Shown one piece after another: positions 3,200 through 23,393 of a DNA stretch of 64,000 nucleotides. Below the pieces are notes generated by a model, which made no database searches, was not told the DNA's origin, and worked only from the letters and a program-made list of their open reading frames with translations. The DNA is from Dyella amyloliquefaciens (GTDB lineage Bacteria > Pseudomonadota > Gammaproteobacteria > Xanthomonadales > Rhodanobacteraceae), in NCBI RefSeq assembly GCF_004296575.1, contig NZ_SAYT01000001.1:124001-188000 (forward strand), read 5' to 3'. Position 1 is the stretch's first letter, and each line of letters opens with the position of its first letter. The position numbers were made by a program, and so were the translations under genes.

Positions 3200-3834
3200 G
3201 CAGCAGTTCCTTTCGAAGCGAGATGTGCCTGCCAGGCACTGGCGAAGGCGCGCGCACGCGCGGCGACGTCGCTGGCCGGTCGGCCGGGAGCGTAGAGCGA
3301 GGAGCCGATGCCGAAGCCGCCGGCGCCAGCGGCAAGCCATGGGCCCATGTTGTCCGGTGCAATGCCGCCGACGGGCATCACCGCCGTACCGGCGGGCAGC
3401 ACGGCACGCCATGCCTTGAGCACGGCAGGGCTGGCCTGTTCGGCCGGGAACAGTTTCAGTGCGTCCGCGCCTGCACCGAGCGCGGCGAAGGCTTCGGTCG
3501 GCGTGGCGACGCCAGGCACGCAATAGAGGCCGGCCTGCTTCGCTGCGCGGATCACTTCCACGTCGGCGTGCGGCATCACGATCAGCTTGCCGCCGGCGGC
3601 CGCCACTTCGTGGACGCGCGCAGGCGACAGCACGGTGCCGGCGCCGATCAGCGCGCGGTCGCCGAAGGCGTCCACCAGGCGACGGATGCTTTCACAGGGC
3701 TCGGGCGAATTGAGCGGAACCTCGAGCACGCGGAAGCCGGCATCGAGCAGGGCATGGCCCACGTCCAGCGACTCTTCGGGGCGCAGCCCGCGCAGGATGG
3801 CAATCAGCGGAAACGAAGCAAGCCAGGCGTCCAT
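3196..3834 (-). CDS. dgoA: 2-dehydro-3-deoxy-6-phosphogalactonate aldolase
   Basis: A 212-residue class I aldolase of the KDPG/KDPGal (Eda/DgoA) family. Glu38 lies in the VLEVPLNSP strand (general base) and Lys127 in ADALKLFP forms the Schiff base; E. coli DgoA has these at 37 and 126. GAGTVL and MPHAD flank the active site. It splits 2-keto-3-deoxy-6-phosphogalactonate into pyruvate and D-glyceraldehyde 3-phosphate. The start [17 protein letters not shown] is the first ATG after the kinase stop, 5 bases away. The coupled kinase, aldolase and dehydratase order supports KDPGal rather than KDPG as substrate. Confidence 0.94.
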
Positions 3835-10327: not shown

Positions 10328-11636
10328 GGGAAGGTTGGGAAGGGCGCATGGGCAGGACGATGCGGCTCTCGCCATACGGCGTATGCAGCGCGCCCTTCGC
10401 GTAATCGATGGCCATGCGCATGTAGCCTTCCGAATAACGCGTGGAGACACGCTCACCTTTCGCGTCCGTCTCGAACTCCGTCATGCCGTGCTCGGCCTTC
10501 GGAAATACCGCGGTGGTGATGGGCAGCCCGTCGGCCTGCAGCGAAGTCAGCCGGCGCAACGTTTCACCGCTCGGCGCGTCGATGTCCAGGCCACCGAGCA
10601 TCCACAGCTGCGGCGTATGCAGCTTGCTCAGCACCGCCATCGAGTCGTAGTGCCACGGCGTGTGGAACATGTACGCCTTGCCCTTCTCGCGGATATCCGC
10701 ATCGCTCATCGGCAGCACGAGGTAGCTGAAGTCGCCGCGCACGTCCTTGTACCAGGGCTCCTTGCTGTACTTGGCGCGTGCGGCATCGAGCTGGTCGAAG
10801 CCCTGGGTGAGGCCGCTGGAGAGGATCAGGCCGATGGCGTCGGACAATTCCCAGGCCTTGTCGATCACCGACTGGTCATAGCCTTTGAGCTTCAGCTGGA
10901 ACGCCACCGCTTCGCGATCCTCCTCCAGCGGCGAGATGGCGAGGCCGTAGCCGATGATCGCGAAGTCGGCTTTGGTGCGCTCCGCCGCCAGCGGTGCCAC
11001 CCAGCCGCCCTGAGATCCGCCGCGGAAACCCACGCGGACCGCGCGTGCGCCGGCCAATTTGCGGGCCTCGTCCATGGCGGCCACCGCATCGTTCGCCAGC
11101 ACGCTGTAGTCCTGCGTGTACTCGCCGGCCGAGTCGCCGGTGCCGCGCTTGTCGTAGACGAACGCACCCACGCCCTCGGCGGGCAGCTGGCGCTGCATGG
11201 CGTCCCAGATGCGTGCCGAATTGTGTTCCGAGCCATGCACCAGCACCACGATGGGGACCTTGCCCGAACCCGGCGGAAGAATCAGTCGTCCCACCAGTCG
11301 CGTGCCGCCCTCGCCGGTGAAGACCGTATCGTGTACTTCCAGTGGAATGCGCCTGGCGGCCATGCCGCCGAAAGTGAGCTCGCCCTTGGCGCAATTACTG
11401 AACACCACATCCTTGCCGTCTGGACGGTCGGTCCAGCCGAACGTGCTTTTCCACGCATCGTCGTGATCGCGATGCAGCTGGCCGCTGGCGCCATCGATGC
11501 GACGCCAGCGCAGCGTACCCTCGTCGCTGGGGGCGATATCCAGCGACTGGCCATCGGCGAGACGGTAGGCCCCGATGTGGCAGTCAGCGGCGGCAGGGGC
11601 GCTGGCGAGCAGGGCGGCAAACAAGAGGGAGAACAT
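10323..11636 (-). CDS. Exported alpha/beta-hydrolase with prolyl-oligopeptidase-like esterase fold
   Basis: 437 residues with a signal peptide (1-17) and a small N-terminal beta domain (18-110). The alpha/beta hydrolase core has oxyanion VLVHGSEHNS, YDKRGTGDS (161-169), nucleophile FRGGSQGG with Ser208, Asp in MLGGLDIDAPSG and His in KAEHGM. It resembles the peptidase/acyl-hydrolase family typified by YhaB/BAAT-like dienelactone hydrolases. Substrate is unknown. ATG 11636 is chosen for the signal peptide; the frame is open for 55 codons upstream but without signal features. The TAG stop is part of a REP sequence, so the C terminus has probably been reset by repeat insertion. Confidence 0.78.
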   Translation of the reverse strand: MFSLLFAALLASAPAAADCHIGAYRLADGQSLDIAPSDEGTLRWRRIDGASGQLHRDHDDAWKSTFGWTDRPDGKDVVFSNCAKGELTFGGMAARRIPLEVHDTVFTGEGGTRLVGRLILPPGSGKVPIVVLVHGSEHNSARIWDAMQRQLPAEGVGAFVYDKRGTGDSAGEYTQDYSVLANDAVAAMDEARKLAGARAVRVGFRGGSQGGWVAPLAAERTKADFAIIGYGLAISPLEEDREAVAFQLKLKGYDQSVIDKAWELSDAIGLILSSGLTQGFDQLDAARAKYSKEPWYKDVRGDFSYLVLPMSDADIREKGKAYMFHTPWHYDSMAVLSKLHTPQLWMLGGLDIDAPSGETLRRLTSLQADGLPITTAVFPKAEHGMTEFETDAKGERVSTRYSEGYMRMAIDYAKGALHTPYGESRIVLPMRPSQPSL

Positions 11637-11795
11637 GGAATCCGGGTCCTTGCGAAGTGCCATCAAACTAGCAAGCGGGGCGATTCGCGCCATTGGCCGC
11701 AAGTCACGCCCCTGCCGGCAGTCATGCCTGATCATGCATGAGCCCGGCGTCAGGCTCACGTAGGTGGATGTCAAGGAATCGACATGCGGCCCGGT

Positions 11796-11815
11796 CACCA
11801 TGAACGTTCATGGTG
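11796..11815. promoter_or_regulatory. Perfect 20-bp palindrome upstream of the glycerophosphodiesterase
   Basis: CACCATGAAC followed directly by its reverse complement GTTCATGGTG, with no spacer, ending 25 bases before the start codon at 11841. Size and symmetry suit an operator for a dimeric repressor (LacI or TetR type). The binding protein is unknown. Confidence 0.5.
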
Positions 11816-11840
11816 CCGATGCATCACAAGGGAGCAGGGA

Positions 11841-12938
11841 ATGCCCGTGGTTCGTTTAAGCTGGGCCGTCTTCGCGGCTGGTGTGCTGTCCATGGGCAAC
11901 CTGCAGGCCAACGAGGCGCCGCTGGCGCCGAAGGTGCTGGTGATCGGGCATCGAGGCGCCAGCGCGCTGCGACCGGAGCACACGCTCGCCTCCTATGGCA
12001 AGGCGATCGCCGACGGCGCCGACTTCATCGAACCCGACCTGGTGATGACGCGCGATGGCGTACCGGTGGCGCGCCATGAGAACGAGATCAGCGGCACCAC
12101 CGACGTGGCGCAGCATCCCGAGTTCGCCTCGCGCAAGACCACCAAGACCATCGATGGCCAGCCGGTGAGCGGCTGGTTCACCGAGGATTTCACCCTCGAC
12201 GAACTCAAGACCCTGCGTGCACGCGAACGCCTGCCGGAGTTTCGCAGCACCGCGTACGACGGGCAGTTCCAGATTCCCACGCTGGACGAGATCATCGATT
12301 TCGTCGCCACCGAATCGGCGACGCAGGGCCGCGTGATCGGCATCATTCCCGAGATCAAGCACGGCACCTATTTCCAGAAGGCTGGTTTGCCGATGGAAGA
12401 CCGTGTGCTCGCCATCCTCGCCGCGCATGCCTATACGCGGACGGCGCCGGTGGAAATCCAGTCGTTCGAGATCGCCAACCTGCGCTATCTGCGTGGCAAG
12501 CTCGGCAAGGCGCATCCGAACATCCATCTGCTGCAGTTGCTGGACGGCGTGGACGAGCATCCGTACGACGTGGTCGCTGCCGGCGGCAAGCTGAGCTACG
12601 GCGACATGATGACGCCCAAGGGCCTGCGCGATATCGCCGGCTACGCCGACGCGATCGGTCCGAACATCCGCGCCATCATCCCGCTGGCAGCGGATGGCAC
12701 GCTGGGCAAGCCGACTTCGCTGGTGCATGACGCGCATGCGGTGAAACTCGAGCTGCATCCCTATACGTTCCGCCCCGAAAACCATTTCCAGGCGAAGAAT
12801 TTCTGGCAGGGCAGCGACCCGAAGACGTTCAACGAAGCCGGTTCGGTGGCCGAGATACGCGCCTATCTCGCCGCGGGCATCGATGCGTTCTTCACCGACG
12901 ATCCGGCCCTTGGCCGCAAGGCCGTGGACGGGCGCTGA
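11841..12938 (+). CDS. glpQ: Periplasmic glycerophosphodiester phosphodiesterase
   Basis: 365 residues with a signal peptide (about 1-23). It is a GDPD-type TIM barrel: HRGASALRPEHT with catalytic His37 and Arg38, metal ligands Glu64 and Asp66 in EPDLVMT, second catalytic His79 in ARHEN, and the Glu of IPEIKHG in the middle. It hydrolyses deacylated phospholipids to glycerol 3-phosphate and an alcohol. The length and the insertion after residue 80 match E. coli GlpQ rather than cytoplasmic UgpQ. ATG 11841 has the strong site GGAGCAGGGA. It stands between phosphatases and a phosphodiesterase, fitting phospholipid head-group scavenging, and has a 20-bp palindrome in its leader. Confidence 0.93.
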   Translation: MPVVRLSWAVFAAGVLSMGNLQANEAPLAPKVLVIGHRGASALRPEHTLASYGKAIADGADFIEPDLVMTRDGVPVARHENEISGTTDVAQHPEFASRKTTKTIDGQPVSGWFTEDFTLDELKTLRARERLPEFRSTAYDGQFQIPTLDEIIDFVATESATQGRVIGIIPEIKHGTYFQKAGLPMEDRVLAILAAHAYTRTAPVEIQSFEIANLRYLRGKLGKAHPNIHLLQLLDGVDEHPYDVVAAGGKLSYGDMMTPKGLRDIAGYADAIGPNIRAIIPLAADGTLGKPTSLVHDAHAVKLELHPYTFRPENHFQAKNFWQGSDPKTFNEAGSVAEIRAYLAAGIDAFFTDDPALGRKAVDGR

Positions 12939-12947
12939 CCTCGTTCG

Positions 12948-12970
12948 GCCCCGCCTTTCGTGCGCGGGGC
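12948..12970 (+). terminator. GC hairpin after glpQ
   Basis: GCCCCGC (12948-12954) pairs with GCGGGGC (12964-12970), 9-nt loop. Only a short mixed T stretch follows, so termination may be partial and the next gene may be co-transcribed. Confidence 0.4.
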
Positions 12971-13002
12971 GTTACCGCGTTTCCCCCTGAAGTGAGTGTC
13001 CC

Positions 13003-14331
13003 ATGCGTCGACTGACCTGTCGTTTGCTCGCCAGCGTGCTGGCGTGCGCGGTGGTGCCGGTGGTTTCGGCATCGCCCGTGCTGATGATTTCCATCGATGG
13101 CCTGCGTCCCGCCGACGTGCTGCATGCACAGGAGCGGGGCCTGGCGTTGCCGAACCTGCAGGCGTTCCTCAAGCAGGGCAGTTACGCCGAGGCCGTGCGT
13201 GGCGTGCTGCCCACGCTGACCTATCCCAGCCATACCACCTTGATCACCGGCGTCACGCCGGAGGTTCACGGCATCGGCGGCAATCTCACCTTCGATCCCA
13301 CCAACAAGAACCAGCAGGGCTGGGCCTGGTACGCCAGCGACATCAAGGTGCCGACGCTGTGGGATGCGGCGCATGCAGCTGGCCTGCGCACCGCCAACGT
13401 GCATTGGCCGGTGAGTGTGGGCGCCACGGTGGACTGGAACCTGCCGCAGATCTGGCGCACCGGCATGGCCGACGATCGCAAGCTGCTGGCCGCGCTCGCC
13501 ACGCCCGGCCTGCTGCCGTCGCTGGAGCAACAACTGGGACCGTATGCCGACGGCATCGACGAAAGCCTGGCGGGTGACCAGACGCGCACGCGTTTCGCCG
13601 TGGCCTTGCTGGAATCGCGCAAGCCCGACTTCATGACGGCGTATCTCACCGCGCTCGATCACGAGCAGCACGCCAGTGGCCCGGATACGCCGGAGGCGCG
13701 CGCCGTGCTGCAGCACATCGATGCACTGGTGGGCGATCTGGTGAAGGCGGCGCGCACCGTCCATCCCGATGGCGTGGTGGCGATCGTGTCCGATCATGGA
13801 TTTCTGCCGGTACAGAACGACGTGAACCTGTATGCGCCTTTCATCCAGGCCGGCCTGATCACGCTCAAGGGCGCCGATGTCGCCGACTGGCAGGCGATGC
13901 CGTGGAACGACGGCGGCTCCGCGGCCATCGTGCTGCGCGATCCGGCAAACGCCGGCGTGCACGCCAAGGTGGCGGCGCTGCTCGCGCAGCTGCAGAAGAA
14001 TCCGGCGTTCGGCATCGAGCGCGTGCTCGATCATGCGGAAGTCGCGAAGGATGGCGGCACGTCGAAGGCGGACTGGTTCGTGCTGTTCAAGCCGGGCTAC
14101 GAGATGGCCATTCGCCCCGATGCACCGCTGCCGTCGCCCAGCCACTATCGCGGCATGCATGGCTACGATCCATCGCTGGCGCAGATGCGTTCCACCTTCC
14201 TTATCGCCGGCAAGGGCGTGCCTGCAGGCGATGACCTGGGCGAGATCGACATGCGCGACATCGCACCGACGATCGCGCACGTGCTCGGTGTCAGTCTGCC
14301 GCAAGCGCAGGGCAAGCCACTGCTCCATTGA
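13003..14331 (+). CDS. Exported nucleotide pyrophosphatase/phosphodiesterase (NPP) family enzyme
   Basis: 442 residues with a signal peptide (1-23). It is an alkaline-phosphatase-superfamily NPP: metal ligand Asp32 in MISIDGLRP, nucleophile Thr73 in LPTLTYPSHTT, ALDHEQHASGP with Asp and His ligands, VSDHGF, and a C-terminal GMHGYDP His. The Thr nucleophile within P-T-x-T-x-P-x-H marks NPP-type phosphodiesterases (nucleotide pyrophosphates or lysophospholipid head groups) rather than phosphatases. It follows glpQ by 64 bases and precedes a TonB receptor, so it may act on glycerophospho- or nucleotide diesters in the periplasm. Exact substrate unknown. Confidence 0.88.
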   Translation: MRRLTCRLLASVLACAVVPVVSASPVLMISIDGLRPADVLHAQERGLALPNLQAFLKQGSYAEAVRGVLPTLTYPSHTTLITGVTPEVHGIGGNLTFDPTNKNQQGWAWYASDIKVPTLWDAAHAAGLRTANVHWPVSVGATVDWNLPQIWRTGMADDRKLLAALATPGLLPSLEQQLGPYADGIDESLAGDQTRTRFAVALLESRKPDFMTAYLTALDHEQHASGPDTPEARAVLQHIDALVGDLVKAARTVHPDGVVAIVSDHGFLPVQNDVNLYAPFIQAGLITLKGADVADWQAMPWNDGGSAAIVLRDPANAGVHAKVAALLAQLQKNPAFGIERVLDHAEVAKDGGTSKADWFVLFKPGYEMAIRPDAPLPSPSHYRGMHGYDPSLAQMRSTFLIAGKGVPAGDDLGEIDMRDIAPTIAHVLGVSLPQAQGKPLLH

Positions 14332-14345
14332 GCGTAAGTGCTAAC

Positions 14346-14375
14346 GCGAAAACGCGGTTTTTACCGCGTTTTCGC
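14346..14375 (+). terminator. Hairpin terminator after the phosphodiesterase
   Basis: A perfect 13-bp stem (14346-14358 with 14363-14375) around TTTT. The arms are built of GCGAAAA and CGCGGT. It separates the enzyme from the TonB receptor transcript. Confidence 0.6.
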
Positions 14376-14526
14376 AGATGTTTTAAATATGCGTGTCATC
14401 GCGGATACACACGCAAACTTCACGCTTTCCTGATGCCATCCGAGTGGTTCGGACGGCTATTTCCCCTCTGTATACCCATCACTTGATCGTGCGGATTCAG
14501 GGTGAATCCGCGCGCGAGGATTCGTC

Positions 14527-16812
14527 ATGCCCAAGCTTTCCCTTCGCAGGACCGCGATCGCGCTGGCAACCCTGGCCGCCCTCCACGCTGGCGTCGCCTT
14601 CGCAGACGATGCCGTGCCCGCTGCCGTCGACGGTGCGGCCAGCGTCGACAAGGCCAAGACCATGGACGCGGTGTCGGTGGTGGCCTCCGGCGAAACCCGC
14701 CAGGTGCAGAAGATCACCAGCGAGGACATCCAGGCGCTGGCGCCGGGCACCAGCCCACTCAAGGCTCTCGACAAGCTGCCCGGCGTGAACTTCCAGTCGG
14801 CCGATCCGTGGGGCGCGTACGAGTGGTCCACGCAGATCACGCTGCACGGCTTCGACCAGAGTCGACTCGGCTTCACGCTGGACAATATCCCGCTCGGCAA
14901 CATGACCTACGGCACCACCACCGGACTGCAGGTGACGCGTGCGATCAGCAGCGACAACATCAGCACAGTGGAACTGGCGCAGGGCGCCGGTGCACTGGGC
15001 ACGCCGGCGAACACCAACCTGGGCGGCACCATCCAGTTCTTCTCGGCCGACCCGGACGCGGTGGCCGGCGCGCGAATCAACCAGGTGCTGGGCTCGGATT
15101 CCACCACGCGCACCTTCGTGCGCCTGGATACGGGTGACTACCACGGCTTCTCGATGTACGTGTCCTACGATCACGCTTCCACCGACAAGTGGAAGGGCTA
15201 CGGCGACCAGCGCTCCAACCAGATCAACCTGAAGTCCGTGTACCAGTGGGACGGCGGTAGCGTGAGCCTGTTCTACGACGAGTCGCGCCGCAAGGAATAC
15301 GACTACATGGACCTTTCCCTCACGAGCCAGAAGGCGCTGGGCTGGAAGTGGGACTACCTGCAGCCGGACTGGAACACGGCGGTGCAGATCGCCAACGCAT
15401 ACAACGGCAAGGGCAGCTATCCCGCTGTGCTGTCGCCGCTGCCGGCCGGCTATGACCTGGTGGATTCCACCTATTACGCGGGTGGCGGCATTCGTCGCGA
15501 CACGCTGACGGGCCTGAGCGGCACCTTCAACCTGGCCGAACACACCACGCTCAACCTCGGCACCTACTACCACGACAATCGCGGCGAAGGTCAGTGGGCC
15601 ACGCCGTATGTCGCTTCCTCGCCGACGGTGCCGCTGGCGATGCGCACCACCGACTACGGCCTCGATCGCTTCGGTGGCACCGGCTCGCTGCAGTTCACGC
15701 TGGGCGGCAACGAGATCGAAGTGGGCTTCTGGGCGGAAGACGCCACCACCAACCAGGAGCGCAACTACTTCTATCTGACGGGTGCGTACAACTACCTCAG
15801 CAACTTCTATGAGAACGAAGAGCCGTTCCTGCGTGGCTTCCTCCAGCACTACGACAGCAAGACGCGCATGGCTTATGCGTCGGACACGATCCGCTTCATG
15901 GACGATCGCCTGACGGTGAACTTCGGCGCGAAGGCGCTGGGAGTAACCAACAGTGCCGAGTCGCTGGTACCGAGCAGCGCGCTGGCACAGGGCCGCATCC
16001 GCGCCAGCGACGGCTTCCTGCCGCAGGTGGGCGTCAACTACAAGCTCGACGCCAACCAGGAGGTGTACGCCTCCTACAGCAAGAATCTCGCGGCCTACGG
16101 CTTCCTGCCCTTCAGCCAGTCGCAGGCGGCCTTCGATGCGAGCAAGAGCTCGTTGAGTCCGGAGCAGTCGCAGACCTTCGAGCTGGGTTATCGCGTGCAT
16201 GGCGACACGTTCGAAGCATCGGCCGATGCGTACTACACGCGCTTCACCAATCGCCTGTTGGCGGTATCGCCGTGCAGCGCGGTGCAGACCTGTTCCGCCA
16301 TCCTCAACAACGTCGGTTCGGTGAAGAGCACCGGTATGGACCTGGCGGTGATCTGGCGCCCGATCGAGCAAGTGCGCTGGCTCAACTCGCTCTCGTACAA
16401 CAACTCCAAGTACCAGGACGACTACCTCAACAACGGCGTGGTGGCGACCGACGGCAAGTACGTGGTCGGCATCCCGAGCTGGATGTTCAGCAGTGACCTC
16501 AGCTACTCCTGGGGCGGCTGGCGCGCGAGCATCGATGGCAAGTACACCGGTCGTCGCTACATCACCTACCTCAACGATTCCGAGGTGCCCTCGTACTGGC
16601 TGTTCGACCTGGGCGTGAGCTATGACATCGGCACGGTGTCGGTGCTGAAGGACCTGAGCCTGGGTCTCAACGTCACCAACCTGCTCGACAAGAAATACTT
16701 CGCCACCACCGGCACCAACGGCTACGTGGCCTCCGACCCGCAGGGCTGGAACCAGACGCTGATGGCCGGCGCGCCGCGGCAGGTGTTCTTCAGCATCAAC
16801 GCGAAGTTCTGA
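14527..16812 (+). CDS. TonB-dependent outer-membrane receptor
   Basis: 761 residues with a signal peptide (1-26, cleavage AFA-D). The plug domain spans about 45-170 and includes ALDKLPGVNFQSADPWG, ITLHGFDQSRLGFTLD and VELAQGAGALGTPANTNLGG. The 22-strand barrel ends in the C-terminal aromatic signature VFFSINAKF. LGLNVTNLLDKKY is the typical penultimate-strand motif. Such receptors import metal chelates, vitamins, sugars or phosphate compounds using TonB energy. The flanking phosphodiesterases suggest an organophosphate ligand, but this is only positional. It has its own 150-base leader after a terminator. Confidence 0.93.
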   Translation: MPKLSLRRTAIALATLAALHAGVAFADDAVPAAVDGAASVDKAKTMDAVSVVASGETRQVQKITSEDIQALAPGTSPLKALDKLPGVNFQSADPWGAYEWSTQITLHGFDQSRLGFTLDNIPLGNMTYGTTTGLQVTRAISSDNISTVELAQGAGALGTPANTNLGGTIQFFSADPDAVAGARINQVLGSDSTTRTFVRLDTGDYHGFSMYVSYDHASTDKWKGYGDQRSNQINLKSVYQWDGGSVSLFYDESRRKEYDYMDLSLTSQKALGWKWDYLQPDWNTAVQIANAYNGKGSYPAVLSPLPAGYDLVDSTYYAGGGIRRDTLTGLSGTFNLAEHTTLNLGTYYHDNRGEGQWATPYVASSPTVPLAMRTTDYGLDRFGGTGSLQFTLGGNEIEVGFWAEDATTNQERNYFYLTGAYNYLSNFYENEEPFLRGFLQHYDSKTRMAYASDTIRFMDDRLTVNFGAKALGVTNSAESLVPSSALAQGRIRASDGFLPQVGVNYKLDANQEVYASYSKNLAAYGFLPFSQSQAAFDASKSSLSPEQSQTFELGYRVHGDTFEASADAYYTRFTNRLLAVSPCSAVQTCSAILNNVGSVKSTGMDLAVIWRPIEQVRWLNSLSYNNSKYQDDYLNNGVVATDGKYVVGIPSWMFSSDLSYSWGGWRASIDGKYTGRRYITYLNDSEVPSYWLFDLGVSYDIGTVSVLKDLSLGLNVTNLLDKKYFATTGTNGYVASDPQGWNQTLMAGAPRQVFFSINAKF

Positions 16813-16822
16813 GATCGATGAA

Positions 16823-16863
16823 AGCCGGGCCGGGCGTCCTTCCTCCGGGAGGGGCACCCGGCT
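16823..16863 (+). terminator. Hairpin after the TonB receptor
   Basis: AGCCGGG (16823-16829) pairs with CCCGGCT (16857-16863), with an inner CTCC/GGAG helix. There is no strong T run. Confidence 0.35.
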
Positions 16864-16939
16864 GCTGTGGCGCGGCGAGCGAAAGGCGCTGGACAGGCAC
16901 TAAGATCAGGATTCGACCAGGGGTTGGGGGAATCCAGGC

Positions 16940-17659
16940 ATGTCTGTTTCAAACGCCGCCATGGCGCCTTCTGTGCTGCGCGGAATCGATGTTGCGGTCG
17001 TGTTGGCCGCGGTGGCCGCGATCATCGGCGGCACCTTTGGCGCGCCCGGCATGGCCGATAGCTGGCACGTATTGCATTGGGTCACGAAACCGCTGGCCAC
17101 GCTGCTGATCCTGTGGACCGCCTGGCGCGCGCAGCCGCCGGTTTCGATGGGTTATCGGCGCTGGATCGCCATCGGCATGCTGTTCTCACTGGCCGGTGAC
17201 ATCTTCCTGATGTTGCCTGTGGACGCCTTCGTGGCCGGCCTCGTGGCCTTCCTGCTGGGCCATCTGTGCTTCATCCGGGCCCTGGTCGGCGACACCCGTT
17301 TCGCGGCCCGGCCCCTCGCCCTGCTGGGTTGCCTGGCATACGGGCTGCTCAATCTATGGGCGCTATGGCCCACGCTGCCGGGTGCACTTCATGTGCCCGT
17401 CGTGGTCTATGTGGTGGTGCTGACCACCATGGGCGGGCAGGCCGTGGCACGGGCCTGGGCGCACGGTGGCGACCGGCTCGCAGGGCCGGCGCAGTGGGCG
17501 GCGGCGGGCGCGCTGCTGTTCATGCTCAGCGATACACTGCTGGCCTGGAACCGCTTCCGCCTCGCCATTCCGCTGTCGTCGCTGTGGGTGCTGGCGACCT
17601 ACTACGCGGCGCTCTGGTGCCTGGCGCGTTCGGTTCGGCAGACGGGTGATTTCACGTGA
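16940..17659 (+). CDS. YhhN/TMEM86-family membrane protein (lysoplasmalogenase-like)
   Basis: 239 residues, about eight hydrophobic segments. Family signatures are present in order: KPLATLLIL, FSLAGDIFLML, FLLGHLCFI, ALLFMLSDTLLAWNRF and ATYYAALWCLARS. Conserved acidic residues in SLAGD and MLSD are the proposed active-site residues of the family. The human member TMEM86B and bacterial lysoplasmalogenases cleave the vinyl-ether bond of lysoplasmalogens to an aldehyde plus glycerophospho-base. The gene ends inside the start of the next gene (GTGA), so the two proteins are probably made together. Activity is inferred from family; some YhhN proteins are uncharacterised. Confidence 0.85.
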   Translation: MSVSNAAMAPSVLRGIDVAVVLAAVAAIIGGTFGAPGMADSWHVLHWVTKPLATLLILWTAWRAQPPVSMGYRRWIAIGMLFSLAGDIFLMLPVDAFVAGLVAFLLGHLCFIRALVGDTRFAARPLALLGCLAYGLLNLWALWPTLPGALHVPVVVYVVVLTTMGGQAVARAWAHGGDRLAGPAQWAAAGALLFMLSDTLLAWNRFRLAIPLSSLWVLATYYAALWCLARSVRQTGDFT

Positions 17660-18924
17660 ATGTGCAAGCCATCATCATGACGTGGGCCACACCGGTGTTC
17701 TTCGTCCTGATCGGACTGGAACTGCTGGTGGGCAAGCTGCGCAAGCGCCGCGTGTACCACTCCAGCGATGCCATCAACAGCCTCGGGCTCGGCGTGATCT
17801 CGCAGGTTGTGGGTGTCTTCAGCAAAGTGCTGACGCTGGGCATCTATGCATGGTGCGTGGAGCACGTGGCGATCTTCTCGCTGTCGCCTACCAGCCTCTG
17901 GGTGTGGGTCAGCGCGCTGCTGTTCTACGACTTCTGCTACTACTGGCTGCACCGGGCGGGCCACAAGGTCAACATCTTCTGGGCCGCGCACGTCGTGCAC
18001 CACCAGAGCGAGGACTACAACCTTTCCACCGCGCTGCGCCAGACCGGCAGCGGCGTGTTGCTGGGCTGGCTGTTCTATCTGCCGATGGCGATCGCCGGCT
18101 ACCCGCTGGAAGTGTTCGCGGTGGTGGCGCTGATCGACCTGCTGTACCAGTTCTGGGTGCACACCGAACTGGTCGGCAAGCTGGGCTGGTTCGACCGCGT
18201 GTTCTGCTCGCCCTCCAACCATCGCGCGCATCACGCGGTGAACGATCGCTACCTCGACAGGAACTACGGCGGCGTCCTGATTCTGTGGGATCGCCTGTTC
18301 GGCACCTTCGTCGAGGAAGACGACAAGGATCCGCCGATCTACGGCACGCGCTCACCGCTGCGCAGCTGGAACCCGCTGTGGGCGAACGCCGAGGTGTATT
18401 GGGCCGCGTTGAAGGATGCATGGCATGCGCGGCGCTGGCGCGACAAGCTGCTGGTGTGGATCAAGCCGCCGGGCTGGCGGCCTGGCGATGTGGCCGAGCG
18501 CTTTCCCAAATCCGACTTCGACATCCAGCGTCCGCGTTACCAGCCGGTGCTGTCGCGCGGCCTCGTGATCTATAGCCTGGTGCAGTTCACGCTGCTGCTG
18601 GTGATGGCGGTGCAGTTCCTCGACCTGGCCAAGCATCTGCCGGCGGCTGCGCTGGCCGCCTATGCGGTGTTCCTCGTGCTCAGTCTCACCGCGCTGGGCG
18701 TGCTTACCGAGGGCAGGCGCAGTGGCGTGGTGATGGAGCTGGCGCGCCTGCTGATCACTGCGGGCATTCCGCTGGTCACCGGCGGCTGGTTCGGTGTCGC
18801 GGGGCTGGATACCGGCATCGTCGCCGCGCTGGTCGCTGTGCCCGCAGCGAGCGCCCTGGTACTTGGGTGGCTGGCCATCCATACGCCCGCGCAGGCGGAC
18901 TCCGGACGCGCCATACCCGGCTGA
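17656..18924 (+). CDS. Fatty acid hydroxylase superfamily protein, alkylglycerol-monooxygenase-like
   Basis: 422 residues starting at GTG 17656, which overlaps the previous stop by 4 bases. Several membrane helices flank a di-iron histidine set: HRAGH at 99-103, HVVHH at 112-116, and later an HTEL and an HRAHHAVN block. The NHRAHHAVNDRYLDRNYGG segment is characteristic of sterol desaturase/TMEM195 (AGMO)-like proteins. AGMO cleaves alkyl-glycerol ethers with O2. After residue 300 there is an additional hydrophobic tail domain. Coupling with a lysoplasmalogenase suggests a joint role in ether-lipid breakdown. A sterol or carotenoid hydroxylase role cannot be excluded. Confidence 0.82.
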   Translation: MNVQAIIMTWATPVFFVLIGLELLVGKLRKRRVYHSSDAINSLGLGVISQVVGVFSKVLTLGIYAWCVEHVAIFSLSPTSLWVWVSALLFYDFCYYWLHRAGHKVNIFWAAHVVHHQSEDYNLSTALRQTGSGVLLGWLFYLPMAIAGYPLEVFAVVALIDLLYQFWVHTELVGKLGWFDRVFCSPSNHRAHHAVNDRYLDRNYGGVLILWDRLFGTFVEEDDKDPPIYGTRSPLRSWNPLWANAEVYWAALKDAWHARRWRDKLLVWIKPPGWRPGDVAERFPKSDFDIQRPRYQPVLSRGLVIYSLVQFTLLLVMAVQFLDLAKHLPAAALAAYAVFLVLSLTALGVLTEGRRSGVVMELARLLITAGIPLVTGGWFGVAGLDTGIVAALVAVPAASALVLGWLAIHTPAQADSGRAIPG

Positions 18925-19005
18925 GCCCCTGCCTTCGCGCAGCTGCAGCGTGGCAGGGCGGGGCGCATTCGTTATGATCGCCGCTCACTTTGCGGGGATG
19001 AGCGG

Positions 19006-20439
19006 ATGGGTTTCCTGAACAAGCTGGTGCGGCACAAGCCGGTGGAGATGCTGCAGGCCGAGGCCGGCAAGCGTGGCGATTTCCGTCGTGTGCTGGGTCT
19101 CTGGCAGCTCACTGCGATCGGCATCGGCGGCATCATCGGCGTCGGCGTGTTCGTGCTGGCCGGCCAGCAGGCGGCGCTCAATGCGGGCCCGGCCGTGGTC
19201 CTCTCCTTCCTGATCGCCGGCATCGCCAGCGCCGCCGCGGCCCTGTGCTACGCGGAGTTCGCGGGCCTCATCCCGGTCACCGGCAGCGCCTATACCTATG
19301 GCTACGCAGTGCTCGGCGAGCTCGCAGCCTGGCTGATCGGCTGGGACCTGTTGCTGGAATACGCGCTGATCGTGGCGGTGGTGGCGATCGGCTGGTCCGG
19401 CTACGTGCAATCGGCGCTCACCAGCATGGGTATTCATTTGCCGGTGTGGGCGCAGGGCGCCATGGGCACCGGCGAAGGCCATGTGTTCAACGTGATCGCC
19501 GCGGCGGTGACCTTGGGCGTGTCGGCGCTGCTCACGTTCCGCACCGAGTGGGGTGCACGTTTCAATACGCTGGTGGTGACGATCAAGGTTGCCGCGGTGG
19601 CGCTGGTGATCGGCGTGGGCGTGTTCTACGTCAATCCGGCGAACTGGGTGCCGTTCATTCCGGAGCGCATCACCGGCGCCGATGGCGTGTCGCACTTTGG
19701 TTTCTCCGGCGTCGCCACGGCGGCGGCGGTGGTGTTCTTTGCGGTGTTCGGCTACGACACGCTCACCACGGCGGCGGAGGAATCGAAGAATCCGCAGCGC
19801 GACCTGCCGCGCGCGGTGCTGCTGTCGCTCGGCATCTCGATGGCGATGTATCTCGCGGTGTCGCTGGTGCTGACCGGCATTGCGCACTACGACACGCTCA
19901 ATACCGACGCCCCGGTGTCCGATGCCTTCAAGGGCCTGGGCCTGCATTGGGTGGCGTTGACCGTGTCGGTATCGGCGGTGTTCGGCCTGATCAGCGTGCT
20001 GTTTGCCTTCATGCTCGGCGCCTCGCGCATCTGGTATGCGTTGGCACGCGATGGCCTGATCCCAGGCTGGTTCGCCCACGTGCATCCGCGCTATGGCACG
20101 CCGCATCGCCCGACCATCGCGCTTGGCGTGTTCACCGCGCTGGTGGCGGGCTCGACGCCGATCCAGAAGGTCGCCGAGCTGGTCAACATTGGCGTGCTGT
20201 CGGCCTTCATCGTGATCTGCAGCTCGGTCATGATCCTGCGCAAGCGCAAGCCGGACCTGCCGCGTGCGTTCCGCACCCCGCTGGTGCCGCTGGTGCCGCT
20301 GATCGGTATTGGCTTCTCGATCTGGTTGCTGTCCGAGCTGCCGGCGATCACCTGGAAGGTGTTCCTGATCTGGGTGAGCCTGGGCATGGTGATCTACCTT
20401 GGCTACGGCATGCGGAACAGCAAGCTGGAGAAGCTGTAA
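19006..20439 (+). CDS. APC-family amino acid permease (cationic amino acid transporter type)
   Basis: 477 residues, about 12 membrane helices. Helix 1 has the substrate-binding break TAIGIGGIIGVGVFVLAG. Helix 3 carries YAEFAGLIPVTGSAYTYGY, and helix 6 the FFAVFGYDTLTTAAEE segment, typical of the YfnA/CAT branch (TC 2.A.3.3). It imports amino acids at the inner membrane. The start ATG 19006 follows a GGGGATGAGCGG leader; a TATGAT -10-like hexamer lies at 18973-18978 in the 81-base gap. It ends at a REP pair and a bidirectional terminator. Confidence 0.9.
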   Translation: MGFLNKLVRHKPVEMLQAEAGKRGDFRRVLGLWQLTAIGIGGIIGVGVFVLAGQQAALNAGPAVVLSFLIAGIASAAAALCYAEFAGLIPVTGSAYTYGYAVLGELAAWLIGWDLLLEYALIVAVVAIGWSGYVQSALTSMGIHLPVWAQGAMGTGEGHVFNVIAAAVTLGVSALLTFRTEWGARFNTLVVTIKVAAVALVIGVGVFYVNPANWVPFIPERITGADGVSHFGFSGVATAAAVVFFAVFGYDTLTTAAEESKNPQRDLPRAVLLSLGISMAMYLAVSLVLTGIAHYDTLNTDAPVSDAFKGLGLHWVALTVSVSAVFGLISVLFAFMLGASRIWYALARDGLIPGWFAHVHPRYGTPHRPTIALGVFTALVAGSTPIQKVAELVNIGVLSAFIVICSSVMILRKRKPDLPRAFRTPLVPLVPLIGIGFSIWLLSELPAITWKVFLIWVSLGMVIYLGYGMRNSKLEKL

Positions 20440-20459
20440 GGCGACATGCGCGCCGTCCC

Positions 20460-20582
20460 TGTGGGAGCGCACCCTGTGCGCGACCGCAGAGATTGGATGT
20501 ATCGATGCATGCGGTCTTCGGTGCAAACAAGGAATCCGCATCACTGCTTCGTAGGTCGTCGCGCACAGGGTGCGCTCCCACA
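20460..20582. repeat. REP inverted pair (REPIN), G subtype
   Basis: REP 20460-20484 and inverted copy 20558-20582, both TGTGGG/CCT-loop/GCGAC subtype, 73 bases apart. It lies directly after the permease stop and before the terminator. Confidence 0.85.
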
Positions 20583-20602
20583 AAAATCGCTTCCAAAGAA
20601 AA

Positions 20603-20628
20603 ACGGCCGCTTGCGCGGCCGTTTTTTT
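20603..20628. terminator. Bidirectional intrinsic terminator
   Basis: ACGGCCGC (20603-20610), loop TTGC, GCGGCCGT (20615-20622) and then seven T; A-rich sequence on the other side. It serves both the permease (plus) and the outer-membrane protein gene (minus). Confidence 0.85.
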
Positions 20629-20647
20629 GTTTCACCTACCGCAATGC

Positions 20648-21232
20648 TTAGAAGCGGTATTCCACCGAAGCCGAGTAGGCCGCGATGTTGGTGTTGAGCT
20701 GCGACTCGCTGGAGCCAGCGCGGCCGTACTTCACGTGGTAGTTGTCGTAGTTCAGCGCCAGGCTGACGTTCTTGGTGACGTCGTAGCCCACGCCTGCACC
20801 GGCGTACCAGCCGTTGTTCCAGCTCTTCTGCGAGACGGACGCGTCGCCCACAGTGACGCCAGCGGTGGTGCGCGAACGCAGGTAGCCGCCGTGACCGGTG
20901 ACGTACCAGTTGTTGTAGAAGTTGTACTTGGCGGTCACGCCAAGCTGTGCGACGCGCGGCTTGGCCCAGGTGCTGACGAAGTCAGCATCGTTCTTGGCCT
21001 TGCCAAGGTCGGCGTAGCCGAGTTCGGCGCCGACGATGCCGTTCCAGCGCCAACCGAAGCGCACGTTGTAGAACGCGTCGCTCTTGTCGGAGATGCCGCC
21101 GATGCGGTAGTTGCTCTGGCCGAGGTTGCCGGCGACGAAGAAGTTGTCGAGCTGGTTGCTCTCGTCGGCCTTGGCGGCAAACGGCGAAACGGCAGCGACG
21201 GCCAAGACGGCCGCAAACAAAGTCTTGTTCAT
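20648..21232 (-). CDS. Outer-membrane beta-barrel protein (OmpA/OmpW-like porin family)
   Basis: 194 residues with a signal peptide (cleavage near AKA-D). The mature protein alternates aromatic and polar residues in about eight predicted strands, e.g. FYNVRFGWRWNGIVGAELGY and GYDVTKNVSLALNYDNYHV, and ends with YSASVEYRF, the terminal Phe signature recognised by the BAM machinery. It belongs to the small 8-stranded outer-membrane barrel class (Pfam beta-barrel family 13 style). ATG 21232 is preferred over the ATG five codons upstream because GGAG lies 6-7 bases before it. Function unknown; such proteins are often adhesive or stress-related. Confidence 0.85.
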   Translation of the reverse strand: MNKTLFAAVLAVAAVSPFAAKADESNQLDNFFVAGNLGQSNYRIGGISDKSDAFYNVRFGWRWNGIVGAELGYADLGKAKNDADFVSTWAKPRVAQLGVTAKYNFYNNWYVTGHGGYLRSRTTAGVTVGDASVSQKSWNNGWYAGAGVGYDVTKNVSLALNYDNYHVKYGRAGSSESQLNTNIAAYSASVEYRF

Positions 21233-21494
21233 GGAGTGCTCCATCATTTTCTTGTGGTTCCAATGCGGCGCCTAAGGGGGAAGGTCGCATTGGTCCGCGT
21301 GGGGATCGCGGTGACGAAAGGATACGGGCATTTAACGCGCACATAGCGGGTGCGACATTCTGTGGGACGGGCGAGGTTCAGACACCGCCATGACCAATGG
21401 CAGGGGGTGTGGTGTGCGTTGTCGCACTAGCATCAGAGGTTCATGTTCCGTGCAGCTTCGCATTTTGTTGCACGGATTTTCACAGGAGAACCTC

Positions 21495-23393
21495 TTGAAA
21501 GCCTCGCGTCTCGCTTCCGCCATCCTCGCTTCAGCCTTTGGCCTGGGCAGCTTCGCCGCACTCGCCGACGTGCCCGCGCCGCAAGACATTCCGTTCGACG
21601 GCGTGTTGAAGATCAATGTCGATGCCACCGATCTCGCGCATCGCGTGTTCCGCGTGCACGAGGTGGTGCCGGCGAAGGCCGGCCCGCTCACCCTGCTGTA
21701 CCCGCAGTGGCTGCCGGGCAACCACTCGCCGACCGGCTCGATCGACAAGCTGGCTGGCCTGGTGGTGAAGGCGAACGGCAAGGTGATCCCGTGGAAGCGC
21801 GATCCGCTCAACGTGTTCGCGTTCCACGTGGATGTGCCGGAAGGCGCGAGCAACGTGGAAGTGGAGTTCCAGTTCCTCTCCGCGCAGGACACCCGCCAGG
21901 GTCGCGTGGTGATGACGCCGGAAATGCTCAACGTGCAGTGGAATTCGGTGTCGCTGTACCCGGCCGGCTACTTCGCCAGCCGCATCAAGGCCGAGACCAG
22001 CGTGACCTTCCCGGCCGGCTGGCAGTACGGCAGCGCGCTGGAGATGGCCTCGCGCAGCGGCGACACGGTGAACTTCAAGCCGATCGACTACGACGACCTC
22101 GTCGACTCGCCGATCTATGCGGGCAAGTACTTCAAGCGCGTGGACCTGGACCCGGGCGCACAGACGCCGGTCTTCCTCAACATCGTGGCGGATGATCCGA
22201 AGTTCCTCGAGATCAAGCCCGAGCAGCTGAAGGTGCACCAGAACCTGGTGCAGCAGATGTACAAGCTGTATGGCGCGCACCACTACAACCACTACGACTT
22301 CCTGTTCTCGCTGAGCGACAAGATGTCGGGCAATGGCCTGGAGCACCACCGTTCGAGCGAGAACGGCGTGGGCACCGGCTACTTCACCGAGTGGGACAAG
22401 AGCGTGGTCATGCGCGACCTGCTCTCGCACGAGTTCAACCACTCGTGGGACGGCAAGTACCGTCGCGGCGCCGACCTCACCACGCCGAACTTCAACGTGC
22501 CCATGCAGGACAGCCTGCTGTGGGTGTACGAAGGCCAGACCCAGTTCTGGGGCTACGTGATGGCCGCGCGCTCGGGCTTGTGGAAGCAGGAAGATGCGCT
22601 GGACATGCTGGCCAATGTCGCCGCCACCTACGACAAGGGCCGCCCGGGCCTGCAGCAGTGGCGCAACATCCAGGACACCACCAACGACCCGATCATCGCG
22701 ATGCGCCGCCCGCTGCCGTATCGCAACTACCAGATGAGCGAGGACTACTATTCCGGTGGCCAGATGATCTGGATGGACGTCGACGGCAAGCTGCGTGACC
22801 TCACCGGCAACAAGCGCTCCATCGACGACTTCGCCAAGGCCTTCTTCGGCATGAAGAACGGCGAGTGGGACGTCAATACCTATACGTTCGAAGACGTGGT
22901 GAAGACGCTCAACGACATCACCCCGTACGACTGGACCACCTACCTGCGCGAGCGTCTGGACGGCCACGGCCCGCTGATCGGCGGCTTCGAGGCCAACGGC
23001 TGGAAGCTGGTCTACAACGACAAGCCCTCGGCCGTGTCCAAGGCCGTCGAAGCGCGCATGGGCGGCGCCAACCTCACCTATTCGCTGGGCGTTTCGGTGG
23101 GCAAGGGCGGCGACATCGCCGACGTGCTGTGGGACGGCCCCGCCTTCAAGGCCGGCCTGTCGCCGGGCATGAAGCTGGTTGCGGTGAACGGCAAGGAATA
23201 CTCCAGCGACGCCATCAAGGACGCGGTGACTGCCGCGGCGAAGGACAAGAACCAGCCGGTGGAACTGCTGGTAAAGAACTTCGACGAGTACAAGACGATC
23301 CGCATCGATTACCACGATGGCCTGAAGTATCCGCACCTGGAGCGCATCGCAGGCAAGCCGGATCGTCTGGCGGATCTGTTGAAGGCGCGTTGA
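21495..23393 (+). CDS. M61-family metallopeptidase (glycyl-aminopeptidase-like) with PDZ domain
   Basis: 632 residues. I choose TTG 21495 as start: it has AGGAGA 7 bases upstream and opens a clean signal peptide ending ALA-D; an upstream ATG (21390) would put 35 non-signal residues in front. Zinc site HEFNH is at 312-316 with third ligand Glu346 in WVYEGQTQFWG. The N-terminal beta domain (25-230) is typical of M61. A PDZ domain (about 535-610; SLGVSVGKGGDIADVLWDGPAF onward) completes the architecture. These exported aminopeptidases favour N-terminal glycine or alanine. Single gene with its own terminator. Confidence 0.9.
   Translation: MKASRLASAILASAFGLGSFAALADVPAPQDIPFDGVLKINVDATDLAHRVFRVHEVVPAKAGPLTLLYPQWLPGNHSPTGSIDKLAGLVVKANGKVIPWKRDPLNVFAFHVDVPEGASNVEVEFQFLSAQDTRQGRVVMTPEMLNVQWNSVSLYPAGYFASRIKAETSVTFPAGWQYGSALEMASRSGDTVNFKPIDYDDLVDSPIYAGKYFKRVDLDPGAQTPVFLNIVADDPKFLEIKPEQLKVHQNLVQQMYKLYGAHHYNHYDFLFSLSDKMSGNGLEHHRSSENGVGTGYFTEWDKSVVMRDLLSHEFNHSWDGKYRRGADLTTPNFNVPMQDSLLWVYEGQTQFWGYVMAARSGLWKQEDALDMLANVAATYDKGRPGLQQWRNIQDTTNDPIIAMRRPLPYRNYQMSEDYYSGGQMIWMDVDGKLRDLTGNKRSIDDFAKAFFGMKNGEWDVNTYTFEDVVKTLNDITPYDWTTYLRERLDGHGPLIGGFEANGWKLVYNDKPSAVSKAVEARMGGANLTYSLGVSVGKGGDIADVLWDGPAFKAGLSPGMKLVAVNGKEYSSDAIKDAVTAAAKDKNQPVELLVKNFDEYKTIRIDYHDGLKYPHLERIAGKPDRLADLLKAR

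Follow-up and report, generated by a model that had tools for sequence, protein, structure and literature searches.

A conserved YhhN and AGMO-like hydroxylase gene pair in Dyella amyloliquefaciens with a proposed role in lyso-ether-lipid cleavage

A YhhN/TMEM86-family gene encoding a predicted lysoplasmalogenase (16940..17659, plus strand, 239 aa) and a gene for an alkylglycerol monooxygenase (AGMO)-like di-iron hydroxylase (17656..18924, plus strand, 422 aa, GTG start) overlap in Dyella amyloliquefaciens and recur together in other bacteria as neighbors, as a single fused protein, and as unlinked genes of one genome. We propose that the pair is a bacterial lyso-ether-lipid cleavage unit that would convert sn-1 alkyl and vinyl ethers to fatty aldehyde and a glycerophospho-headgroup, a reading to which we give a probability of about 0.6. 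Homology, residues, linkage, fusion, and co-occurrence are observed, and the location, substrates, products, pterin cofactor, and scavenging role proposed below are inferred. The locus lies in a 64,000-nucleotide stretch of DNA, analyzed whole and referred to here as the window. A previous sequence-only reading of this DNA had suggested searching genomes for a conserved pair, and adjacency, fusion, and unlinked co-occurrence were all observed. Taken as a whole, its interpretation is partly supported, in that the family assignments and the conserved linkage hold.

Why lysoplasmalogenases occur in microorganisms without plasmalogen synthesis is posed as an open question in the accessible part of PMC9052158. 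Little is likewise known of what bacterial AGMO-like oxygenases do in nature, one being described, in the portion of the literature available, as a prodigiosin cyclase. With a conserved operon and a natural fusion at hand, both questions can be addressed directly in harmless soil bacteria, and if our reading is true, bacteria and animals share a two-enzyme chemistry for opening the sn-1 ether bond. The literature searches listed no account of a YhhN-AGMO pair or fusion.

Family membership and conserved residues

The window YhhN protein matches PF07947 with E 3.5e-44 (151.1 bits; cut-off 25.6), bearing out the earlier family assignment. Its residues K50, G86, D87, H108, G190, S197, D198, and Y221 correspond to the eight positions mutated in human TMEM86A/B, as listed in the available text of PMC11994398, and among 28 aligned rows seven of these sites are kept in 28/28 and the histidine in 27/28. 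The AF2 model (pLDDT 94.0) shows eight long helices, matching the predicted eight-transmembrane-helix trait, and VIA-align relates it to GPCR/rhodopsin folds (Z 8–11), a similarity that does not imply function but agrees with a statement on the YhhN fold in the published text at hand. The protein therefore resembles human TMEM86A/B and bacterial YhhN proteins in domain, in catalytically important residues, and in modeled helices. Lysoplasmalogenase activity has been published, according to partial sources, for the human protein and for YhhN from two other bacteria, and one bacterial YhhN is described there as requiring a free sn-2 hydroxyl. Unlike the window gene, the published bacterial YhhN proteins are presented, in the portions available, with no mention of coupling or fusion to an AGMO-like hydroxylase.

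The second protein had been read as a di-iron hydroxylase with AGMO-like histidines, and it matches PF04116 (FA_hydroxylase) with E 7.8e-31 (107.7 bits, cut-off 31). The residues essential in AGMO are, in human numbering, nine histidines together with Q162, D233, N235, Y236, W243, and D244 (PMC7911779, accessible in part). All 15 are kept in the window hydroxylase and are invariant across an alignment of 17 family sequences; in a wider alignment of 43 rows, chosen by hand for diversity, 13 are invariant and the remaining two have one exception each. The full set is present in 23/23 fused loci and 55/57 other named loci, versus 4/18 short paralogues. As a control, the histidines, D233, N235, and D244 are kept in 18/18 short paralogues, so that only Q162, Y236, and W243 discriminate. 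Besides the FA_hydroxylase domain and the nine histidines plus six further essential residues, animal AGMO (TMEM195, EC 1.14.16.5) and the window protein have the same residue spacing, apart from a single residue inserted after Q129 and before H169. By analogy with AGMO, tetrahydropterin use and ether cleavage are candidate properties of the window hydroxylase.

Animal AGMO also carries a C-terminal domain, PF24858, which is recognized in part of the bacterial relatives. In the window hydroxylase, the match (E 6.9e-5, 23.3 bits; 27.2 bits in a genome-wide search) lies under the Pfam gathering score of 28.3, whereas a relative from Pseudomonas alkylphenolica scores above it with 31.1 bits. The domain was found at E<=1e-3 in 20 of the 43 hydroxylase relatives, and at E<=0.01 in none of six fused proteins scanned and in neither of two further loci (L068 and L174). 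We considered homology between this domain and YhhN, which would explain the fusion, and rejected it at a profile comparison probability of 0.9%. The window hydroxylase further differs from animal AGMO in being bacterial, with relatives that are paired with or fused to YhhN. Its AF2 model has a pLDDT of 92.3, and its core aligns with Scs7p (4zr1_A) over 171 residues in VIA-align (Z 5.4, rmsd 5.7). Foldseek returned no match at E<=1e-3 for the AF2 model of either the hydroxylase or YhhN, and a sequence search of both proteins against solved structures gave nothing at E<=1.

Linkage, fusion, and co-occurrence of the two genes

The coupling of the YhhN and hydroxylase genes is not chance. A search of 117 Rhodanobacteraceae genomes found the two genes adjacent on one strand in 38 of the 47 genomes that carry both, with YhhN preceding the hydroxylase in 38/38 pairs spread over 10 genera. 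The 4-base start/stop overlap (GTGA) noted in the sequence-only reading is present at 17656..17659 on the plus strand, and overlaps of this length occur in 26 of the 38 adjacent pairs, the others ranging from a 1-base overlap to 50 bases apart, as read by a script that picked the start codons nearest to the window proteins' starts. Among 80 named loci, 23 encode a single fused YhhN/hydroxylase protein with the order reversed, mostly in Comamonadaceae, and other arrangements of the pair appear in further lineages. Twenty of the 80 named loci were removed as near-duplicates for the tree. A further candidate fusion, in which YhhN lies within a 676-aa frame (genome G668), was discarded because the search showed no hydroxylase next to that YhhN, and none of 57 matching plasmid records covers at least 80% of the fused query.

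Co-occurrence extends beyond physical linkage. Both genes are found in 16/369 genomes of a class sample versus 1.1 expected (a weak 386-aa match in genome G355 being excluded from the "long" hydroxylases), and in 14 of these 16 they are not adjacent. A phylum sample, in which "long" denotes E<1e-120 with no length measured, gave 95/397 genomes versus 40 expected. Restricting the comparison to genomes of at least 2.8 Mb, a hand count placed YhhN in 15/17 hydroxylase carriers versus 2/19 non-carriers (p 3e-6); the 19 AGMO-negative genomes are those with a listed size, two of them included because they carry YhhN. As the genomes are related, Fisher p-values here and below are descriptive only. 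Some counts run against the ether-lipid reading: 14/61 AGMO genomes of the family lack YhhN, 0/31 Pseudomonas named loci have YhhN in the flank examined (up to 5 kb), and in the phylum sample a hydroxylase match is missing from 31/126 genomes with YhhN. No more than four candidates per genome were scored in the profile searches for the hydroxylase, and absences may therefore be misses.

Neighboring genes

Directly upstream of the pair, with a 127-bp gap to YhhN, lies a gene for a TonB-dependent receptor (14527..16812; PF00593, E 1.3e-44). Farther upstream are genes for a GlpQ-type glycerophosphodiester phosphodiesterase (GDPD; 11784..12938; PF03009, E 8.1e-40) and an NPP-type phosphodiesterase (13003..14331; PF01663, E 1.6e-46), and downstream is an APC-family amino acid permease (19006..20439; PF13520, E 6.8e-53), all on the plus strand. 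The sequence-only reading had placed GlpQ and NPP just upstream of the pair; both genes are real, but a terminator-like hairpin (14346..14375, plus strand) and the receptor gene, which it did not mention, intervene. The scan gave eight terminator-like sites, close to the shuffled mean of 6.2, but the hairpin has 13 pairs and the longest other stem has seven. The hairpin probably sets GDPD-NPP apart from the genes that follow, and on this ground we do not claim a single GDPD-NPP-TonB-YhhN-AGMO-APC operon, despite the common strand. Within the window, an Rfam scan of 11000–21500 gave no match and a tRNA scan found none.

The nearest solved structures of GlpQ are glycerophosphodiester phosphodiesterases, including a periplasmic one, and it is the sole PF03009 match in its own genome. 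Of 12 loci from close relatives, 11 have the gene 2.3–5.0 kb upstream of that for the hydroxylase and the twelfth has no upstream sequence; the 11 relatives were chosen by hydroxylase identity with GlpQ presence not known at selection. Among 16 genomes already known to carry a GDPD nearby, 14 have no other PF03009 gene, and in one genome GlpQ overlaps the AGMO gene directly (ATGA), occupying YhhN's place. GlpQ is nearby in only 3/80 named loci (L087, L090, and L091) and in 4/43 family loci with short flanks, and is absent from the flank examined in five Rhodanobacteraceae-like loci (L088, L089, L092, L093, and L094). The proposed GlpQ link thus stands for close relatives and for a small number of further family genomes, and fails in the other lineages examined; we claim GlpQ as a linked gene only inside the host family, where it is likely a consumer of the pair's products.

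Of the remaining neighbors, the NPP-type gene is present in 9/12 close relatives' loci, a relative of the TonB receptor (46–96% identity) in 10/12, and the APC permease, whose cluster was observed only in loci from the host family and near relatives, in 12/12. We clustered neighboring ORFs around 123 loci (43 family, 80 named), keeping clusters of six or more loci, and among the 45 largest, all but the hydroxylase and YhhN belong to one lineage only or look scattered. We therefore do not include NPP, the TonB receptor, or the permease in the mechanism, and the permease is probably unrelated to the pair.

A proposed route for ether-lipid cleavage and its alternatives

In the proposed route, both enzymes would sit in the inner membrane. 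The AGMO-like enzyme would act on lyso-alkyl-glycerophospholipids or alkylglycerols, hydroxylating their sn-1 O-alkyl chain at C1', and the resulting hemiacetal would break down; YhhN would act on lysoplasmalogens by hydrating their sn-1 vinyl ether. Both enzymes would require a free sn-2 position and cut the same sn-1 bond, and the common products would be fatty aldehyde, which could pass to beta-oxidation, and glycerol or glycerophospho-ethanolamine/choline; where linked, GlpQ may split the resulting glycerophosphodiester. The available part of PMC7911779 gives alkylglycerols and lyso-alkyl-phospholipids as the only substrates of animal AGMO.

The lipids would most likely come from other organisms, being scavenged or detoxified. 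We know of no ether lipids in the host family, and the plasmalogen desaturase family PF10520 matched in 0/42 genomes but likewise in no control, so that the result carries no weight on endogenous plasmalogen synthesis. Pterin use is compatible with the PCD and PhhA homologues of the host genome, which are unspecific. The evidence from co-occurrence is weak: PCD occurs in 14/15 AGMO carriers versus 29/37 controls (p 0.19), and PhhA in 10/15 versus 9/37 (p 0.006), three of the 10 PhhA positives being weak, split matches.

It is possible, if on balance unlikely, that the hydroxylase is AGMO-like by family only and oxidizes another hydrophobic chain, such as a secondary metabolite, an ester lysolipid, an ornithine lipid, or a sterol-like chain, with YhhN acting on its product or in parallel lysolipid clean-up. 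The AGMO-like oxygenase PRUB680 of Pseudoalteromonas rubra, which we compare by description only, cyclizes prodigiosin (de Rond et al. 2017, as cited in other papers), a different substrate, and family membership alone thus does not fix that of the window hydroxylase. Those plasmid-record relatives that carry an annotation, among 25 listed, are assigned to the sterol desaturase family, and the family genomes with a hydroxylase and no YhhN also fit such an activity. Against it, the NCBIfam model for the ornithine-lipid hydroxylase OlsE (NF052566), a member of the same hydroxylase superfamily, aligns over residues 85–225 only and scores 63.4 bits against an equivalog cut-off of 475. Recognition of the AGMO C-terminal domain in nearly half of the 43 relatives at E<=1e-3 likewise counts against it, and recurrent pairing with a tested lysoplasmalogenase family is unexpected for a pigment or sterol enzyme.

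An improbable alternative grants the pair the same chemistry as our reading and differs in purpose alone, namely membrane protection, without a part in nutrition, through the clearing of toxic alkyl and alkenyl lysolipids that hosts, prey, or competitors release. The carriers are mostly aerobic bacteria in which, to our knowledge, plasmalogen synthesis has not been described. YhhN is also reported, in the published excerpts available, to protect a plasmalogen-free bacterium from lysoplasmalogen toxicity. The GlpQ link in close relatives and the adjoining TonB receptor, however, fit uptake and use equally well or better. That two patchy accessory membrane enzymes sit side by side and co-occur only through both being retained by large-genome aerobes is most improbable, for although the genomes are not independent and YhhN occurs with no hydroxylase match in part of its genomes, the fusions, the several gene orders, the size-controlled association, and the co-occurrence of non-adjacent genes all speak against it.

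Returning to lyso-ether-lipid cleavage, alkyl-ether hydroxylation and vinyl-ether hydration meet at one C1'-hydroxy ether, and the two active sites could on this basis be halves of one cycle, in which YhhN takes AGMO's hemiacetal and expels the aldehyde, an idea that we regard as speculative and rather doubtful. If true, fusion would yield true ether lyases with channeling of a reactive intermediate, and YhhN would, in bacteria without plasmalogens, work mainly on AGMO products and not on lysoplasmalogens, which would help explain why so many plasmalogen-free bacteria retain YhhN. The purification of AGMO is called unreproduced in the accessible portion of a review (PMC7911779), and the fused proteins would, if our main reading is true, offer fresh starting material for this enzyme.

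Conservation and co-occurrence of YhhN and the hydroxylase

The YhhN gene (window 16940–17659, + strand; 239 aa; PF07947, E 3.5e-44), a predicted lysoplasmalogenase gene of the YhhN/TMEM86 family, is followed by a gene for a di-iron hydroxylase resembling animal alkylglycerol monooxygenase (AGMO, or TMEM195) (17656–18924, + strand; 422 aa; PF04116, E 7.8e-31). The coordinates and 4-base overlap given for them in the sequence-only reading are correct; the two genes have GTGA at 17656–17659 in common. The genome is 4.83 Mb in size. Among the best 80 loci, records of Dyella and Rhodanobacter carry the nearest named relatives of the hydroxylase, pointing to Rhodanobacteraceae as the probable family of the host. 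Elsewhere the same genome encodes a further FA_hydroxylase-type paralogue, a short one of 283 aa (locus L077, G000:C1:840500-847500, ORF 2697–3548, − strand).

The same reading had proposed looking across genomes for a conserved pairing of YhhN with a fatty-acid hydroxylase, and we found one in the host family. Among 117 host-family genomes, counting YhhN above cut-off and the long form of the hydroxylase, the hydroxylase is present in 61, YhhN in 50 and both in 47. The two genes adjoin on the same strand in 38 of these 47 genomes, representing 10 genera, with YhhN first in every case and a 4-base overlap in 26 of the 38. In four genomes of a single genus the two genes share a strand but are separated by some 8 kb, and in five they are unlinked; the hydroxylase occurs alone in 14 genomes and YhhN alone in three, and one genome pairs YhhN with a short paralogue, paralogue first.

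Co-occurrence extends beyond the family. In a class sample of 369 genomes, the hydroxylase (E ≤ 1e-60) was detected in 23 and YhhN in 18; 16 genomes have both, where 1.1 would be expected (Fisher 9e-21); adjacency does not explain this, because the genes are far apart or on separate contigs in 14 of the 16. When just the long hydroxylases are counted, 15 class genomes remain, 11 of them with YhhN, and a size control limited to genomes of at least 2.8 Mb gave YhhN in 15/17 hydroxylase carriers versus 2/19 non-carriers (counted by hand). In a phylum sample of 397 genomes, 127 carry the hydroxylase (E ≤ 1e-50), 126 YhhN and 95 both, versus 40 expected; YhhN is present in 31 of the 40 genomes with a hydroxylase at E < 1e-120 and in 64 of the other 87, which have weaker, mostly short forms only. 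A hydroxylase was found in 19 of 20 YhhN-bearing families of this sample. Counting against the association, searches of 31 of the 126 YhhN genomes gave no hit to the hydroxylase; family f183 accounts for 11 of these genomes and f2 for 5.

Active-site residues of the two proteins

Nine histidines and six other residues are listed as essential for animal AGMO in a review (PMC7911779). The window hydroxylase has all 15, at equal spacing save one inserted residue between Q129 and H169; they are invariant among 17 host-family sequences, and in a wider 43-row alignment 13 are invariant and each of the other two deviates in a single row. Short paralogues of the same superfamily (about 270–390 aa) served as a control: all 18 keep the nine histidines but only 4 keep the full 15, which indicates that the histidines, D233, N235 and D244 are superfamily-wide and that Q162, Y236 and W243 discriminate. 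PF24858, the Pfam AGMO C-terminal domain, matches the window hydroxylase at E 6.9e-5, under the domain's cut-off; it reaches E ≤ 1e-3 in 20/43 relatives, and a Pseudomonas alkylphenolica relative exceeds the cut-off. The hydroxylase scores far under the cut-off of the OlsE ornithine-lipid model, and plasmid records, among the 25 matches listed, give "sterol desaturase family" as the name of the annotated relatives. An AGMO-like hydroxylase of 412–426 aa is encoded in three gammaproteobacterial genomes that measure only 0.9–1.3 Mb (G292, G147 and G399; loci L174, L176 and L177), and profile searches of these genomes found no YhhN match.

For the YhhN/TMEM86 family, eight residues mutated in human TMEM86A/B have been proposed as catalytic, according to PMC11994398. 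Their equivalents in the window protein are K50, G86, D87, H108, G190, S197, D198 and Y221; seven are invariant in a 28-row alignment and the histidine is kept in 27/28. Eight long helices make up the AF2 model of this protein (pLDDT 94.0). Lysoplasmalogenase activity is reported for the YhhN proteins of two other bacteria, and plasmalogen synthesis is said to be absent from many YhhN-bearing microorganisms (PMC9052158).

Fusions and alternative gene orders

We scanned 84,980 species genomes and based the following figures on the best 80 named loci, with flanks up to 5 kb. YhhN lies inside the flank in 30 of the 80. Of these, 23 have the two domains in a single open frame that begins with the hydroxylase, and 19 of those 23 records are titled Comamonadaceae or its genera (Hydrogenophaga, Variovorax, Acidovorax, Delftia, Rhodoferax). 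Pfam recognises both domains in six fused proteins scanned, none of which matched PF24858 at E ≤ 0.01. The hydroxylase active site is intact in 23/23 fused proteins, with all 15 AGMO residues kept there and in 55/57 other named loci, and that of YhhN in 22/23. Four genomes of our genome samples (G340, G637, G788 and G844) also carry a single-frame fusion, and in one fused protein of 498 aa (L161, 4995–6488) YhhN directly follows the hydroxylase core, the usual C-terminal region being absent, so that YhhN may stand in its place. None of the 31 named Pseudomonas loci among the best 80 has YhhN in its flank (up to 5 kb).

In the fusions the two parts stand in the opposite order to the Rhodanobacteraceae operon, which rules out an origin from that operon by stop-codon loss. 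Quisquiliibacterium has the hydroxylase and then YhhN, overlapping by ATGA, and YhhN comes first in Undibacterium sp. TS12 and in G759, a genome of another family. A quick tree of 98 hydroxylases requires two changes for the fused group, one forced by starred branches, and eight for the YhhN-first group, four of them forced. In two genomes from two genera of family f140 (L268, 4709–6363; L269, 4771–6459), YhhN and another gene, which encodes about 335 aa, are convergent with an AGMO-like hydroxylase; this other gene, AraC-like by eye only, is possibly a regulator of the pair.

Among the open-licence papers listed, no title or abstract opening describes a YhhN–hydroxylase pair or fusion, and none came up on YhhN together with sterol desaturase. 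On this basis the operon and fusion of two known enzyme families apparently were not previously described.

Proposed shared chemistry and the GlpQ neighbour

The pair would cleave the sn-1 alkyl and vinyl ethers of lyso-lipids. The only substrates of animal AGMO are alkylglycerols and lyso-alkyl-glycerophospholipids, which it converts to a hemiacetal that gives a fatty aldehyde (PMC7911779); a bacterial YhhN requires a free sn-2 hydroxyl and releases aldehyde and GPE/GPC (PMC9052158). From these published substrates and products, the two enzymes have backbone, bond and products in common, the C1'–C2' bond being the sole difference, and by analogy this would be the best reason for operon and fusion. 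In textbook chemistry, vinyl-ether hydration goes through the same hemiacetal as AGMO hydroxylation; in a less probable variant built on this shared step, YhhN would handle AGMO's hemiacetal intermediate.

Against the ether-lipid reading counts PRUB680, a bacterial AGMO-like enzyme that cyclises prodigiosin (PMC6667630, PMC7484904 and PMC7911779). PCD occurs in 14/15 long-hydroxylase genomes versus 29/37 controls and PhhA in 10/15 versus 9/37, weak support for a pterin cofactor. Nor are ether lipids known to us from the host.

Upstream on the same strand lie a GDPD/GlpQ gene (11784–12938), an NPP-type phosphodiesterase gene (13003–14331) and a TonB receptor gene (14527–16812); an APC permease gene follows (19006–20439). 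A terminator-like hairpin of 13 pairs (14346–14375), between the NPP and receptor genes, probably makes two transcription units of what looks like a run of six genes. The NPP protein belongs to the ENPP superfamily; it would suit the pathway as a lysophospholipase C/D, but its nearest solved relatives are of mixed function.

GlpQ hydrolyses glycerophosphodiesters, a class to which, by analogy, the compounds freed from lyso-ether phospholipids by lysoplasmalogenase and AGMO would belong. Across 12 close-relative loci from four genera, extended upstream, we found the permease in 12, GDPD in 11, YhhN in 11, the receptor in 10 and NPP in 9, GDPD lying 2.3–5.0 kb from the hydroxylase; the contig piece of the twelfth locus ends too early upstream to show GDPD. 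It was seen in 4/43 other host-family loci, with shorter flanks, and near only 3 of the best 80 named loci, all close relatives, so the link marks part of the lineage to which the host belongs. In 16 genomes already known to have GDPD linked, it is the sole PF03009 gene in 14 and no more than about 5 kb from the hydroxylase in all 16. In genome G011, where a profile search of host-family genomes found no YhhN, the stop codon of GDPD/GlpQ overlaps the start codon of the hydroxylase in an ATGA (locus L065, 4253–4256), in the place that YhhN occupies in relatives.
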